Part shown: one piece after another, positions 20,128 through 27,003 of the stretch
Layout of the letters: every line of letters begins with the position of its first letter
Numbering within the stretch: position 1 is the stretch's first letter
Origin: Antedon mediterranea
Lineage: Eukaryota; Echinodermata; Crinoidea; Comatulida; Antedonidae
Direction: 5' to 3'
Length of the DNA: 64,000 bases
Assembly: GCF_964355755.1 (NCBI RefSeq)
Contig: NC_092676.1
Coordinates: 24,286,288-24,350,287 of the forward strand
Position numbers and translations under genes: made by a program
The notes under the pieces: generated by a model
What the model was told of the DNA's origin: nothing
The model's input: only the letters and a program-made list of their open reading frames with translations
Databases searched by the model: none

Positions 20128-23100
20128 TTATCTGGAAAACTGTCGTTTGTCCTTCCTCTCCACATGTTTGTAAATTTTCATTCGTTTTGCTTGTTTTTGT
20201 CCGAGAGCTGCAAAATCAAACTTTGGTCGTCTAGCTGCCTTTTGGTTCCGCTTACTGGAATAGACACCTGGAAAATATCAAAGAAATATATACAAATTAA
20301 AGCTATAATATTAATACAAAATAGATAAATTTATAATACTTAAATCTATATTATTGTTCTTTTACTGTCAAATAGTGCTCATATTGAGAACATTATCTTA
20401 AAATAATAATATTGACTTCTCTACTTTTGTTCACTTTATCCATCGTAAATCATTGTCGAATGCTAGGCCGGGAAGTAAGGCCATTAAAAAAGAAAAAAGT
20501 TACAGACGGCAGGCACAAGTTGATTTCCAAACACGATCAGTCAACAACCTTGCATGGCAAGAATTCTCATGTCACAGGAAGCTTCACATGCATTAGAGCG
20601 TGTTAATTATCACCATTAGATATCACTTTTTTTGTTAGATAGGGCTACTTCTAAATAACACGTGATGCGTAATTGACCAATCAAATTGCAAGAATACAAT
20701 CAGGTGTGTTATAGTGTACCTAGATCAATGCTCGGAGGAATCTTTAACCCAAAAGACTTTGAAACCCTTTGTAGATCCAGCGTATTGATATTGAAAATCT
20801 GCTTCAGGCTGTGAGAATCATATGCGCGCACATAGCCTTTGTACGCCTCTACTGAAGATTTGTGTAAAAAGTAGTTCTTCTCCATCAGTTTTTCCAACTG
20901 TGAATATAAGAAAAGTTTTCATAAATTTTAATTACCATCCTGTAAATACTTTATTTCAAAAAGTATTGTATTGTGAAATTAGCAAATAAAATAACTAATT
21001 ATAAGTATGAAATGAAATGAATATTTAATTTACCTGTGCCTGAATGTCGGCAATTTTACTCCATGAGAATTCAAACTCACTAAGAGGCACTTTTGACTGT
21101 TTTAAGAATCGAAGGAAGCCAAGTTCTTCTGGTCGTAGTATCAACAAGGCATGACCGGTACCATCAATTCCACGAGCGGTACGACCAACACGATGGATGT
21201 ACTCCTAAAAAATAAAGCATCCGTTATGAATTCCTAAATAATATGTTCTGAATTTTTTATGATTATTATTTATATATCTAACATTGGCAAATGATGATAT
21301 GTCATGCAGTTTGTTTTTCTTTTTTCTGTTGGTATAAGACAAGTTCTTTTACTTCTATTTCCGATCCCAAAACAGCTCCTATTATTGTTACCATATAACT
21401 TATTGTAAATGTATGCTTGTTTTTTCCTTGAATGTGAATGAAAATGTGAAAAAAAAAGAATAGTTGATGATGGTACCTTGGGATCATCTGGAGGATCATA
21501 CTGAACGATCCAATCAACTTGCGGGATGTCAAGACCACGAGCGGCAACATCTGTACACAAGAGAATGCCTTCACTGGCATTGCAGAACTTGAAGAATGTC
21601 TGTGTTCTCTTCATCTGCTTTTGTTTTCCCTAAAACAAAATAACGTACATTTTTGGTTTAGCAATCCTCATTACCACAGTAATTACTAGAAAAGTTTATG
21701 AAACATTTTTGTTTTGAATTAAAAATGTAGATTGTAGGTAAAACCTCCAGGTCATTGTATCTATTTTCAGATAATATATAATGACTTCATTGTATTGAGT
21801 TTGACTATATCATGATCCCAGAATGCAACATAAAACATGCTGTACCCTGGGAGAAACAAGACAAAGTAAACTCACTCAGATCGTCATCTAATGTTATACA
21901 TCATTGAGATACTTGTACTCTAACCTCTAGTTATCAGCTCGGTGGTCTAAAGGTATAGTGATCTGGAGGTCGTGGGTTCGAGACCTACCTGGGAATTACT
22001 TGGGAAAGTACAAATTATGTCGGAGTAGGGCAAATATATGACCAATTACTCAAGACCCCGACGCAAAACTACTCCACAGTAGCTAAAAACAATTACAAAT
22101 TGGGAGATTGCTACACAATGAAATGAGCAACAATGAACATGCTATCATACTTACATGTATACCCATCACTGGTAAGTCAATATAATTCAACAACTCGTGA
22201 TGAAACTTGACAGACATACAAGAGGAGAAGAACACCATCACCTTCTTCTTGCGATTCTTCTTGAGAAAAGTGAAGAGCAAGAGCAAACGCTTTTCTGACG
22301 GACATATCACAAAGCCCTGGAAAAGGAATTTAAACAAGAACATGTTACATGATGTAGCAACACTGGACAGTGTTAGGACATATATTAAGCTAATAAATAA
22401 TACATCTCTTCTCAGATTATATAATGACTTCATTGTATTGAGTGTAACTATATCATGATCCCAGAATGCAACATAAAACATGCGGTACTCCGAGAGAAAC
22501 TAGACAAGTAAACTCACTCAGATCGTCATCTAATGTTATACATCATTGAGATATGTATTCATGTTATGTGATTACTAAATATGTGATATAGTCATTACAC
22601 AGTAGCGTTGTAACAGCAGTTAGTACATATTCGCGAAATACGAATAATATGACTTAAGCTCTGTCTACACTATCAAACTAATTTGACAAAAAAAGTTTGA
22701 TGTGCCCAAATATGGTAGCAACGACTGTAAATTAGGAGAACTGTTTTGGTTCTTACTTGTTCCAGCCCATCAACTGTAGCATTGTTCTTTGAGTCATCTA
22801 CGCCGACATAGATTGGCTCTTTCTTCAGGGATATCCTTGCCAAATCTTCCATCTTCCGAGTTTGGGTTGCTGAGAACAACATTGTCTGTCTTCTCTCTGT
22901 ATGTAAACAATTTCTTTTTATTAAATAATTACAAATTTTGGTTTATTGGTTTACAAACCGGTTTTCAAGTGGTTTGGAGGAACCAAGATCTTCCTAAAAT
23001 GTTATGTATATATTTTGCATTAAATTTGCATAAAATAACATAACAAAAAGAGCTTACTCGGTAGCAGTTTAATAATCTGTTTCATCTCCTCCTCAAAGCC

Positions 23101-26100
23101 AACTTCTAATATCCTATCTGCTTCATCAATTATTAGGCATTGCAGATTTTTGTACATGAACTGTGCTGTGTTCTGAAAAAGTATTAGAAATGAAATAAAT
23201 ACACAAAAAAAAGAGAGTAAAAGTTATCATAAAAAGCAAAATAAAAATAATTTTTGAATATTTATATTTTTTTAAATATTGGTAGCCTTTCTTCAGAGAG
23301 ATTGTGGGAATTTATTCCTGGGTATTGGTGTGGAGTCATGGACATGATGAAAGATAAATTTATATAATTTTTTTTTTGGATCATCCAAATGAAAAATTAT
23401 ATAAATACTATACAGAGATCTAGATGAACCTTTACACTAATGAAAGATAACTTGGCAAGCCCAGGGCATGTACTATAACAAGTCCTGACTCACTTGTAAA
23501 TGATCCAACAATCGACCAGGTGTTGCAACCAATATGTTAATTCCTTTGCCAAGTTTCTCGCTTTCCATCTTTCTGTTGGCTCCTCCCATCACAAGACCAA
23601 ATGTGTGATAGTGATGCTTCAAAAGCTCCTTTAATACACCGTACGTCTGCATCGACAACTCGCGTGTTGGCGATAGAATTATTATACCAGTGCCTATAGC
23701 AATCAAAACAGTTATTTATTTTATTTTATGTCTTTAGGCAATGTGGCCAAGGATTACCAATAGTGAATTAATCACTGTCCTATCAGATAGGTGGTAATCC
23801 CCCTGATACAGGGGCTATTGTGTGAACCAGTTCACCGGGGTAACCCCCTACTCTTTTTCGAATAATGAACTGGGTTTCTTTAAAGTACACACAGGTTATA
23901 ACTGTGTACACTGGACCTACGGTTTATAGTCCTTATGCTGACAATCATTTGTTTATTCAATTTCTGCCATAAACATAAGAAGACAAAACAATTATAAAAG
24001 GAGGCACGGAAAGACCAAACAGGTGCTAAACACCTACCGTATGCTAGTTGGTCAACCCTGAACAGAGAAAAATAAATAAATTACGTTCTACAATAAAAGC
24101 ATCGACAAGAAAGCGACCAACTACACACATTTTCAATATCAAAATTATTTAAAAAATAAATATTGAGATAATTAAGTAATTTGGTTTTAAAAGAACTAAC
24201 AGAAATATTTAAGTTGCGGATTTCACTGGGTAAGTTATATTAATATTATCCGACCATCATCTAAATAAATTGTTTAAGCTTAGCCGAACTGGTAGACACT
24301 CTAAATCAAAACGTTGCCGACAATCATTTGTTTATAATACAATTACAATTCATATATTTAATAGCAAGTTTGTACGATCACTTTAGAATCACTGGTAACG
24401 ACGCTTTATATATTGTATTTGTCTAATTGCATGTCAAATTCCACCAATCAAATTTTTACCTTGTTGTTTAAATGATAAATAAATACTATGATATCGTATT
24501 ATAAATAAATAATAAATCATATTAATATTCTAGTATTTGTTTATGAAGAAATTCAATCACATTGTACACAAGCAACTTACCATTTCTTGGCATGAATTTT
24601 AGTTTATAAATAAGTTCAATTGCAGGTATAAGAAACGCTAATGTTTTACCACTACCGGTCTTGGCAGATGCTAATAAATCCCTAGAAAAAAGAAATAAAA
24701 ATACTGTATACAGGATACTCATATTTCTCTAGCTATTAGATGAATTAGAGTTGATTTTAGTGTTAAAAACCATTCCTCATAGATTATACAAATTAAATCA
24801 TATTCATAACAGAGTTTTAATGCTAGTAACAAAATTCTAACATTGTATCCCTTCTCAGATAATATAATGACTTCATTGTATTGAGTTTGACTATATCATG
24901 ATCCCAGAATGCAACATAAAACATGCTGTACCCTGGGAGAAACTAGACAAAGTAAACTCACTCAGATCGTCATCTAATGTTATACATCATCAAGATACAT
25001 TTCTAGAAATATATTTAATATACTGAAAACATACCTTCCTTCCAGTAAGTGAGGTATAGATTTATGTTGTATTTCTGTCATGTGTGTGAATCCCATGTCA
25101 CTGATGCCTTTTAAGGTCAGTTCACACACTCTGTCTTGTAATGAACTAAATTTTGTATCTGTTAAAATTGTACTTGTTCCTGGTACTGTTGAAAATGAAT
25201 AAAATAGTATTAAGCTAATATATGACACCATCATGTCCATATATGGGCACATCATATTTTTTTTGTCACAAAGTTTGATAGTGCACACAGAGCTTAAGAG
25301 ACTGTGTGAAACGCCTTATAGAATTTCCCTGCAGAAAGAGGTTAGAGGTCAACTGTACTTAACATAATAGTATTACTTACATGTCATAACCTGTTTTTCG
25401 GCATGTGTTTCTGTTATACTATTTACTATTAATTTCTGTTTATCATTTACATCCTTTTCATCATCCAATTCATTTCTTTCATCTATATCATTTGATTCTT
25501 CCTCATTGTTTTCACGCTTAACATATGAATTGTAGTCTAGTGTCTCGTCCTCATCTTCATAATCATCATCATCTGTCTCTTGTTTCTGCTCATTATCTTT
25601 AAATTCAGGAATTTTAAAAGTTGTTTTCTGTTTCTTATCAACTGTTGATGTTTCTGGAGACACGGATTCATTAGAAACTTAAATATAAAATGTAACATTT
25701 AATAATATTAATAATAATCTTGAAATATACTGTGTTAATTATGTCTGAAATTGTCTTTAATCTATTCATAGAGTTATAGATTATTATAGTAAAATAAAGC
25801 ACAATAAAAAATGTTAGAATTGTATCTCTTTTCAGATCATATAATGACTTCATTGTATTGAGTGTAACTATATCATGATCCCAGAATGCAACATAAAACA
25901 TGTTGTACCCTGGGAGAAACAAGACAAAGTAAACTCACTCGGATCGTCATCTAATGTTATACATCATTGAGATACAAAGTAAAGAATAAATTTGCGTTGC
26001 ACTTACAATTTATTTAAATAAATATTTACCTCTTTTCTTTTTCTTTAATTTCTGTTTCCTTCTCATCAGTTGCTCCAATAATTCTATAAAAAAAAAAGAC

Positions 26101-27003
26101 TCACTATTATCATTTAATTCTGTATTTTTCCCCCAATTAGACAAGAGAAAATCAACAATGAAACTGTTTTGATTAAATTGAGCTGCTAGCAAAAATAAAA
26201 ACACAATTATTTTATTTGTAAAGCAAGCAGTATAGAATATATATATATATTTCTTACCCCTTTTTCTATTCTTCTTTACTTCATTATAGCGCTTCTTTTT
26301 ACTACTTACAGGCATCTCTGAACAACAAACTAAAAAATATAATTAACCAACAATAATGTAGCTACAGTAGCTAGTCTACTCTTTGATGAATGGTATACCA
26401 GCCTAGGCTAGAGTATACGAAGTATATAATTATAGCCTACAGAGTAGGCTATAGGCCTAGTCTTGTATAATAATGGATAGTAGTAGACTAGGGCATCCGC
26501 TCTTATTAGCTACTAGGCCTAGGCCTAGCCTAGTAGTACTATTACGCCTCCAACAATTATAGTCTAGAGAAACTTCATGAAGAAGAGGATGGATGTCGGC
26601 ATTTATAATATGTCTGATTGATGCGTCTGTATCTATCCGTAACGTACAAAAACACCATCTCTAAAACCTAAAAAGCAATGTGCAATTTCCGTTAAGACAG
26701 CGAACCGGCGGTGCTTGGCTGTATCTTTTTACCTCTAACTAGTACTACTAGGCCTAGGGGCCTAGCCTACTACACTATCTAGGCTGGCCCTCCCTCTATT
26801 AATTATGCCTACGCACCGTACTAGGCGGCTAGAGCCTCTACTAGCTAACTAGCTAGGCTGGCCTAGCTTTAATTAGGAATTAAAACACAGGTTCTACGAT
26901 TCTAAATTTGTATTTGTTTTGAATAGATTATAGATAAACATAACATGTACTTACCTTTTACGCATTTGCCTTTTAAAGGCAATTTTTTATCTTTATTTAC
27001 CAT
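20128..27003 (-). CDS. DDX18: DEAD-box RNA helicase DDX18 (Has1)
   Basis: Coding exons in order: 27003-26955, 26317-26258, 26083-26030, 25677-25381, 25185-25035, 24681-24581, 23693-23494, 23172-23058, 22896-22757, 22316-22155, 21629-21477, 21204-21034, 20897-20720 and 20267-20128. Phases all fit, giving 656 residues against about 670 in human DDX18. The N-terminus is Lys-rich, then acidic. Helicase motifs in order are Q motif TEIQHKSI, motif I AKTGSGKT, Ia [26 protein letters not shown], the [10 protein letters not shown] segment and [11 protein letters not shown]. The DDX18-type tail follows ([19 protein letters not shown]), ending in a basic region. DDX18/Has1 is nucleolar and acts in rRNA processing; yeast Has1 is needed to release snoRNAs from pre-rRNA. 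An in-frame alternative acceptor (26182 instead of 26083) would add 33 residues. Confidence 0.95.
21757..21912 (-). ncRNA. Intronic C/D snoRNA-like element A
   Basis: It lies in the DDX18 intron 22154-21630, same strand as the gene. The RNA would start GUAUCUC and end AGAUAC, which pair. The C-like box is AUGAUGU near the 5' end and the D-like box CUGA is near the 3' end, with an internal CUGA (D'-like) and AUGAUAU (C'-like). A central hairpin is closed by CCCAG/CTGGG and CAGCAT/ATGTTG. The four elements are almost identical. Function and target are inferred. Confidence 0.6.
21933..22080 (+). repeat. tRNA-derived SINE-like repeat
   Basis: A-box-like GGTGGTCTAAAGGTATAG (21941-21958) and B-box-like GGGTTCGAGACC (21974-21985), followed by a non-tRNA body. 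It lies in a DDX18 intron, antisense to the gene, just beyond ncRNA element A. Confidence 0.45.
22399..22559 (-). ncRNA. Intronic C/D snoRNA-like element C
   Basis: It lies in DDX18 intron 22756-22317. The terminal stem has a different sequence from the other copies (AATACATATCTC with GAGATGTATT) but is still complementary, apart from a two-base bulge. The central stem changed from CCCAG to CTCGG and still pairs with CTGGG through G-U pairs. The AUGAUGU and CUGA boxes are unchanged. Retained pairing despite base changes argues for a structured RNA rather than a simple repeat. Confidence 0.6.
22654..22719. repeat. MITE family 1, copy 9 (left half)
   Basis: TTAAGCTCTGTCTACAC and the first half of the core, ending abruptly at ATATGGTAGC about 38 bases from an exon boundary in DDX18. 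Confidence 0.7.
23735..24060. other. Unassigned GC-richer block in the DDX18 intron
   Basis: This stretch of intron 24580-23694 has several short inverted segments (for example CCCCCTGATACAGGGG and GAACCAGTTCACC) and looks like an old transposable element. I found no second copy in the window. The rest of the intron is AT-rich with nothing recognisable. Confidence 0.3.
24844..24999 (-). ncRNA. Intronic C/D snoRNA-like element B
   Basis: It lies in DDX18 intron 25034-24682, starting 35 bases after the 5' splice site on the sense strand. The terminal stem is TGTATC with GATACA. C-like GAUGAUGU, internal CUGA, C'-like AUGAUAU and D-like CUGA are all present. The central hairpin is identical to that of element A. 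Confidence 0.6.
25210..25296. repeat. MITE family 1, copy 10 (internally deleted)
   Basis: It starts TTAAGCT, jumps to the second half of the core (GTCCATATATGGGCACATCA) and ends GTGCACACAGAGCTTAA. The TTAA tetranucleotide is present at both ends. Confidence 0.65.
25820..25977 (-). ncRNA. Intronic C/D snoRNA-like element D
   Basis: It lies in DDX18 intron 26029-25678. It has the longest terminal stem, 9 of 9 paired bases (TTGTATCTC with GAGATACAA). C-like AUGAUGU and D-like CUGA are intact. The internal D'-like box is CCGA here instead of CUGA. In the central hairpin a G-to-A change turns a G-U pair into A-U (CAACAT/ATGTTG). Confidence 0.6.
26400..26880. repeat. TAGGCCTA-rich stretch in DDX18 intron 1
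   Basis: Dense overlapping GCCTAG, AGGCCTA and CTAGCTA words in both orientations, mostly at 26440-26540 and 26740-26870. Similar clusters occur at about 1170-1320 and 1900-2000. It is low-complexity palindromic sequence and not an element with clear ends. Confidence 0.4.

Follow-up and report, generated by a model that had tools for sequence, protein, structure and literature searches.

The 64,000-nucleotide stretch of Antedon mediterranea DNA analysed here (the window) carries on its minus strand the gene DDX18, for which a model of 13 exons and a last one with consensus splice sites was built (exon 10, for example, spans 22155-22316). The first 610 residues of the model match human DDX18 with an E value of 2e-253 and yeast Has1 with 6e-202. 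An initial annotation, made from the letters of the window, had reported four snoRNA-like elements about 95% alike, each in a different DDX18 intron. Coordinates, strand and exon model agree with this report, and the computed identity between copies is 92-95%. Comparison of the four copies places the ends of the element at the limit of similarity, the flanks being unrelated, and the elements lie 82-162 bases from the 3' splice sites of their introns. A tRNA-derived SINE-like repeat (21925-22110) adjoins copy 1. The features are collected in Table 1.

Table 1. Positions of DDX18, the four intronic elements with their boxes and guide, and the companion RNA. Positions refer to the window unless another sequence is named; multiple positions are given in the order of copies 1 to 4.
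Feature	Position	Strand	Remark
DDX18 host gene	20131..27003	(-)	from the start codon to roughly where the last coding exon ends
Copy 1, C/D snoRNA candidate	21757..21912	(-)	inside DDX18 intron 22154-21630
Copy 2, C/D snoRNA candidate	22399..22559	(-)	inside DDX18 intron 22756-22317
Copy 3, C/D snoRNA candidate	24844..24999	(-)	inside DDX18 intron 25034-24682
Copy 4, C/D snoRNA candidate	25820..25977	(-)	inside DDX18 intron 26029-25678
C box AUGAUGU	21898..21904; 22540-22546; 24984-24990; 25961-25967	(-)	copies 1-4
D' guide AUUAGAUGACGA	21881..21892; 22523-22534; 24967-24978; 25944-25955	(-)	copies 1-4, identical; pairs with 28S UCGUCAUCUAAU
D' box	21876..21879; 22518-22521; 24962-24965; 25939-25942	(-)	CUGA in copies 1-3, CCGA in copy 4
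C' box AUGAUAU	21807..21813; 22450-22456; 24893-24899; 25870-25876	(-)	copies 1-4
D box CUGA	21767..21770; 22412-22415; 24855-24858; 25832-25835	(-)	copies 1-4
Companion C/D snoRNA candidate	L012 1425-1535; contig C3 ~10927229-10927339		Am2281/Am3785-type D guide

From 5' to 3' each element consists of a terminal stem, the C box, a guide spacer, the D' box, a long hairpin, the C' box, a second spacer, the D box and the other strand of the terminal stem. The boxes named in the initial annotation were recovered, with the C, C' and D motifs present in all four copies and the D' motif CUGA in three, although the last base of the C box departs from the class consensus RUGAUGA in every copy. The C and D boxes lie near the ends of the element, and a terminal stem of 6-7 pairs closes all four copies. 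The annotation had further argued that the stems keep their pairing through base changes. The evidence is weaker than this suggests. A G-C to A-U replacement in the terminal stem of copy 2 is the single true double-sided change. All changes in the hairpin are one-sided (C-G to U-G, A-U to G-U and G-U to A-U), and copy 2 has lost one of the hairpin pairs. Because the copies are so alike, covariation cannot carry the argument for a snoRNA. The length of about 156 nt, which had appeared odd because ordinary guide C/D RNAs are shorter, is normal for U15, for which the Rfam model SNORD15 has 146 positions. The stretch from the C box through the D' box shows a single substitution across the four copies, whereas the bases just upstream of the D box vary in both length and sequence, and a scan of the interrupted rDNA copies gave no D-side rRNA target consistent across the copies. 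Signs of constraint are therefore seen on the D' side but not on the D side.

A MITE or another transposable element that sits in DDX18 introns by chance might also leave four closely similar copies whose flanks are unrelated. The initial annotation had reasoned against a MITE, and dispersed copies outside DDX18 were looked for in the whole 354 Mb genome. Only four matches were found, each within a DDX18 intron and with a common orientation, although some stretches were withheld from the search and may hide a few more copies; the same method applied to the SINE beside copy 1 returned 54 matches at 71-100% identity on many contigs. A genome-wide pattern of C box, guide and D' box likewise occurs in DDX18 introns only, copy 4 being unlisted solely for its CCGA. 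These numbers, together with the conservation of an rRNA guide among the copies, make a MITE or another mobile family very unlikely; the many dispersed copies of a transposable element are not seen. The four copies in one host gene illustrate snoRNA multiplication within a gene.

The search of rRNA with the sequence upstream of the CUGA boxes, which the initial annotation had suggested, gave a perfect match on the D' side. The 12-nt sequence AUUAGAUGACGA, located one base upstream of the D' box and the same in all four copies, is complementary over its whole length, by 12 Watson-Crick pairs without mismatch or wobble, to UCGUCAUCUAAU in the 28S sequence of the same genome. An antisense element is thus placed directly upstream of D', with pairing from position 2. 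When 300 shuffled guides were compared with 7.6 kb of rDNA-bearing sequence, the best shuffle reached 10 pairs. Pairing of the rest of the RNA with neighbouring 28S sequence was not above that of shuffles, and a search of the guide region in IMG/VR gave no match.

UCGUCAUCUAAU is the site of U15 and snR75 in 28S helix 71, a very conserved part of the large ribosomal RNA, and a family and target, which the initial annotation could not name, can thus be proposed. The two conserved methylation marks in this stretch are listed as Am2281/Gm2288 in yeast, Am3785/Gm3792 in human and Am2282/Gm2289 in plants (PMC11542601); sources differ, as another table has no human Gm there (PMC8817022). In yeast the two sites are served by snR13 and snR75, whereas the D and D' guides of plant U15 serve both, these guides being too close together for simultaneous binding (PMC8053127; PMC8307265). 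The boxes, the terminal stem, the four copies in DDX18 introns and the perfect 12-bp match to a known methylation site make it well supported that the elements are intron-borne box C/D snoRNAs.

In the rDNA copies L005, L006, L007 and L009 the 28S sequence is interrupted just before the snoRNA target, between ...AGC and CAAATGCC, which is where R2 retrotransposons insert; judged by position only, the inserts are presumably R2. The last 10 bases of the insert in L005-L007, GTCATCTAAT, recur within the snoRNA target. Pieces resembling 28S and 18S also lie within a few kb of a U6 snRNA gene (L011 1087-1193, minus strand, 116.9 bits).

At curated cut-offs, Rfam gave no match anywhere in the window. 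Below them, the best matches of the copies are SNORD15 (RF00067) and snR75 (RF01185), both of clan CL00045, at 16.5-18.5 bits (E 0.14-0.81) against gathering cut-offs of 75 and 40 bits, respectively. The highest SNORD15 score, that of copy 3, is 18.5 bits (E 0.14 in 875 bases), and the snR75 scores are 16.5-18.1 bits. Both models contain the same guide between C and D'. With the guide removed, the score of the interior against the SNORD15 consensus was reached by 5 of 1000 dinucleotide shuffles for copy 3 and 19 of 1000 for copy 1, a modest but colinear likeness. The copies thus resemble U15 in C/D class, in a length of about 150 nt, in the D' guide GAUGACGA against 28S helix 71 and in the sequence after D' and the hairpin region. 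Unlike U15, they have no D guide GAGGCAUUUGU directed at the Am2281/Am3785 site, and their guide lies one base closer to D'. With snR75, which has one known target (Gm2288), they share the guide UUAGAUGACGA next to D', but the snR75 model has 88 positions as opposed to about 155 nt, lacks a base-paired internal hairpin and has a register that differs by one base.

The host gene differs as well, as vertebrate U15 is carried by RPS3 and the present copies by DDX18. No U15-like guide was found in 9.9 kb around the Antedon mediterranea RPS3 gene, the boundaries of which are not fully mapped, and a genome search for a C box followed by the U15 D' pattern in its canonical form, GATGACGAGTCTGA, gave no match. 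A genome search with RF00067 gave no match among the 48 of 26,675 candidates that were scored, and as the control genomes were likewise silent, absence cannot be concluded from it.

Guides to one fixed target may evolve more than once, and the elements might be C/D snoRNAs of other descent whose complementarity to this 28S site is convergent. Rfam scores far under the cut-offs, the missing guide on the box D side and a register one base off would all fit such an origin. On the other hand, the interior is colinear with SNORD15 at a similar length, and the same guide occupies the same place between C and D', so that convergence is rather unlikely. Descent of the copies from U15 is likely, and the preferred reading is a diverged methylation guide of U15 type in which the D' guide was retained and the D guide lost. 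An RNA that is missed by the Rfam curated cut-offs thereby receives a target and a likely family.

A genome search for GAGGCATTTGTCTGA found a single place, on contig C3, where a short candidate C/D snoRNA with the C box AUGAUGA and the D box CUGA carries the guide ACGAGGCAUUUGU-CUGA. Its D guide forms 12 pairs with 28S CAAAUGCCUCGU. This companion RNA shares the D guide GAGGCAUUUGU-CUGA with snoMe28S-Am2589 (RF00529) and matches that model over its full length, but at 29.1 bits it remains under the 37-bit cut-off; it forms a separate gene outside the DDX18 set. It sits between exons of a gene encoding acidic repeats, an RRM and a glycine-rich tail, which was read by eye as nucleolin-like. The equivalent of the Am2281 mark is thus probably guided by a snoRNA in the nucleolin-like gene, and what plant U15 does alone seems to be divided between two RNAs in Antedon mediterranea, as in yeast. 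This would be a case in an animal of the division of a guide whose two sites are both served by plant U15.

The spacing between guide and D' sets the expected position of methylation. The snR75 and SNORD15 models read GACGAGUCUGA, whereas the DDX18 copies read GACGAUCUGA (copy 4: GACGAUCCGA), so that all four copies have one base fewer than snR75 and U15. In the 28S sequence UGCCUCGUCAUC, the U of CGU is the equivalent of yeast U2289 and the preceding G that of G2288. In the snR75 register G2288 stands at D'+5; in the copies, where D' follows one base sooner, the conserved G is passed over and the next base, a U (U2289 in yeast numbering), is the one that the D'+5 rule selects. Either the U2289 equivalent is marked in Antedon mediterranea, or the D'+5 rule is relaxed and the mark is Gm2288. 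Yeast snR13 is listed for two adjacent bases at the same spot (PMC8307265), which shows some latitude. It is a tentative and somewhat doubtful proposal that the shifted U15 guide leads to methylation of the U beside Gm2288, instead of or in addition to it, with the U15 jobs split over the DDX18- and nucleolin-hosted RNAs. The register shift yields a sharp prediction for an inter-subunit position that is conserved in the ribosome.

Taken as a whole, it is quite probable that the four elements represent a single intron-encoded C/D snoRNA in four copies, which is divergently related to U15 and snR75 and would guide 28S helix 71 methylation via D'. We infer that the spliced DDX18 introns would be trimmed to the snoRNA, which would then bind the C/D core proteins. 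Its D' guide would pair over 12 bases with UCGUCAUCUAAU in helix 71, and fibrillarin would 2'-O-methylate the 28S there, at the yeast U2289 equivalent by the D'+5 rule or, with a relaxed register, at Gm2288. The D side, apparently having lost its guide, would leave the partner mark Am2281 to the companion snoRNA.

In all four copies the guide bases GAUGAC (columns 36-41 of the alignment of the copies) can also pair with GUCAUU (columns 139-144) in the spacer between C' and D of the same RNA, and this GUCAUU is possibly an internal mimic of the rRNA target. A guide partly paired internally, the length of the RNA with its large internal hairpin and the register off by one might speak for a processing or chaperone role on the same 28S region rather than methylation. 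Yet U15, of similar length, is an established methylation guide, and the guide adjoins the D' box as methylation guides do, which leaves a role other than methylation improbable by a wide measure.

No earlier report of a snoRNA within DDX18 introns was found in the open literature, which is not proof that none exists. Intronic snoRNAs are often hosted by genes for ribosome-making proteins, a common arrangement that needs no special coupling. DDX18 and the nucleolin-like gene both belong to the ribosome-making machinery, and their serving as hosts does not require the functional coupling of host and cargo that the initial annotation had thought possible. DDX18/pitchoune has been placed among the factors of snoRNP assembly or localization under Myc (PMC4430873).
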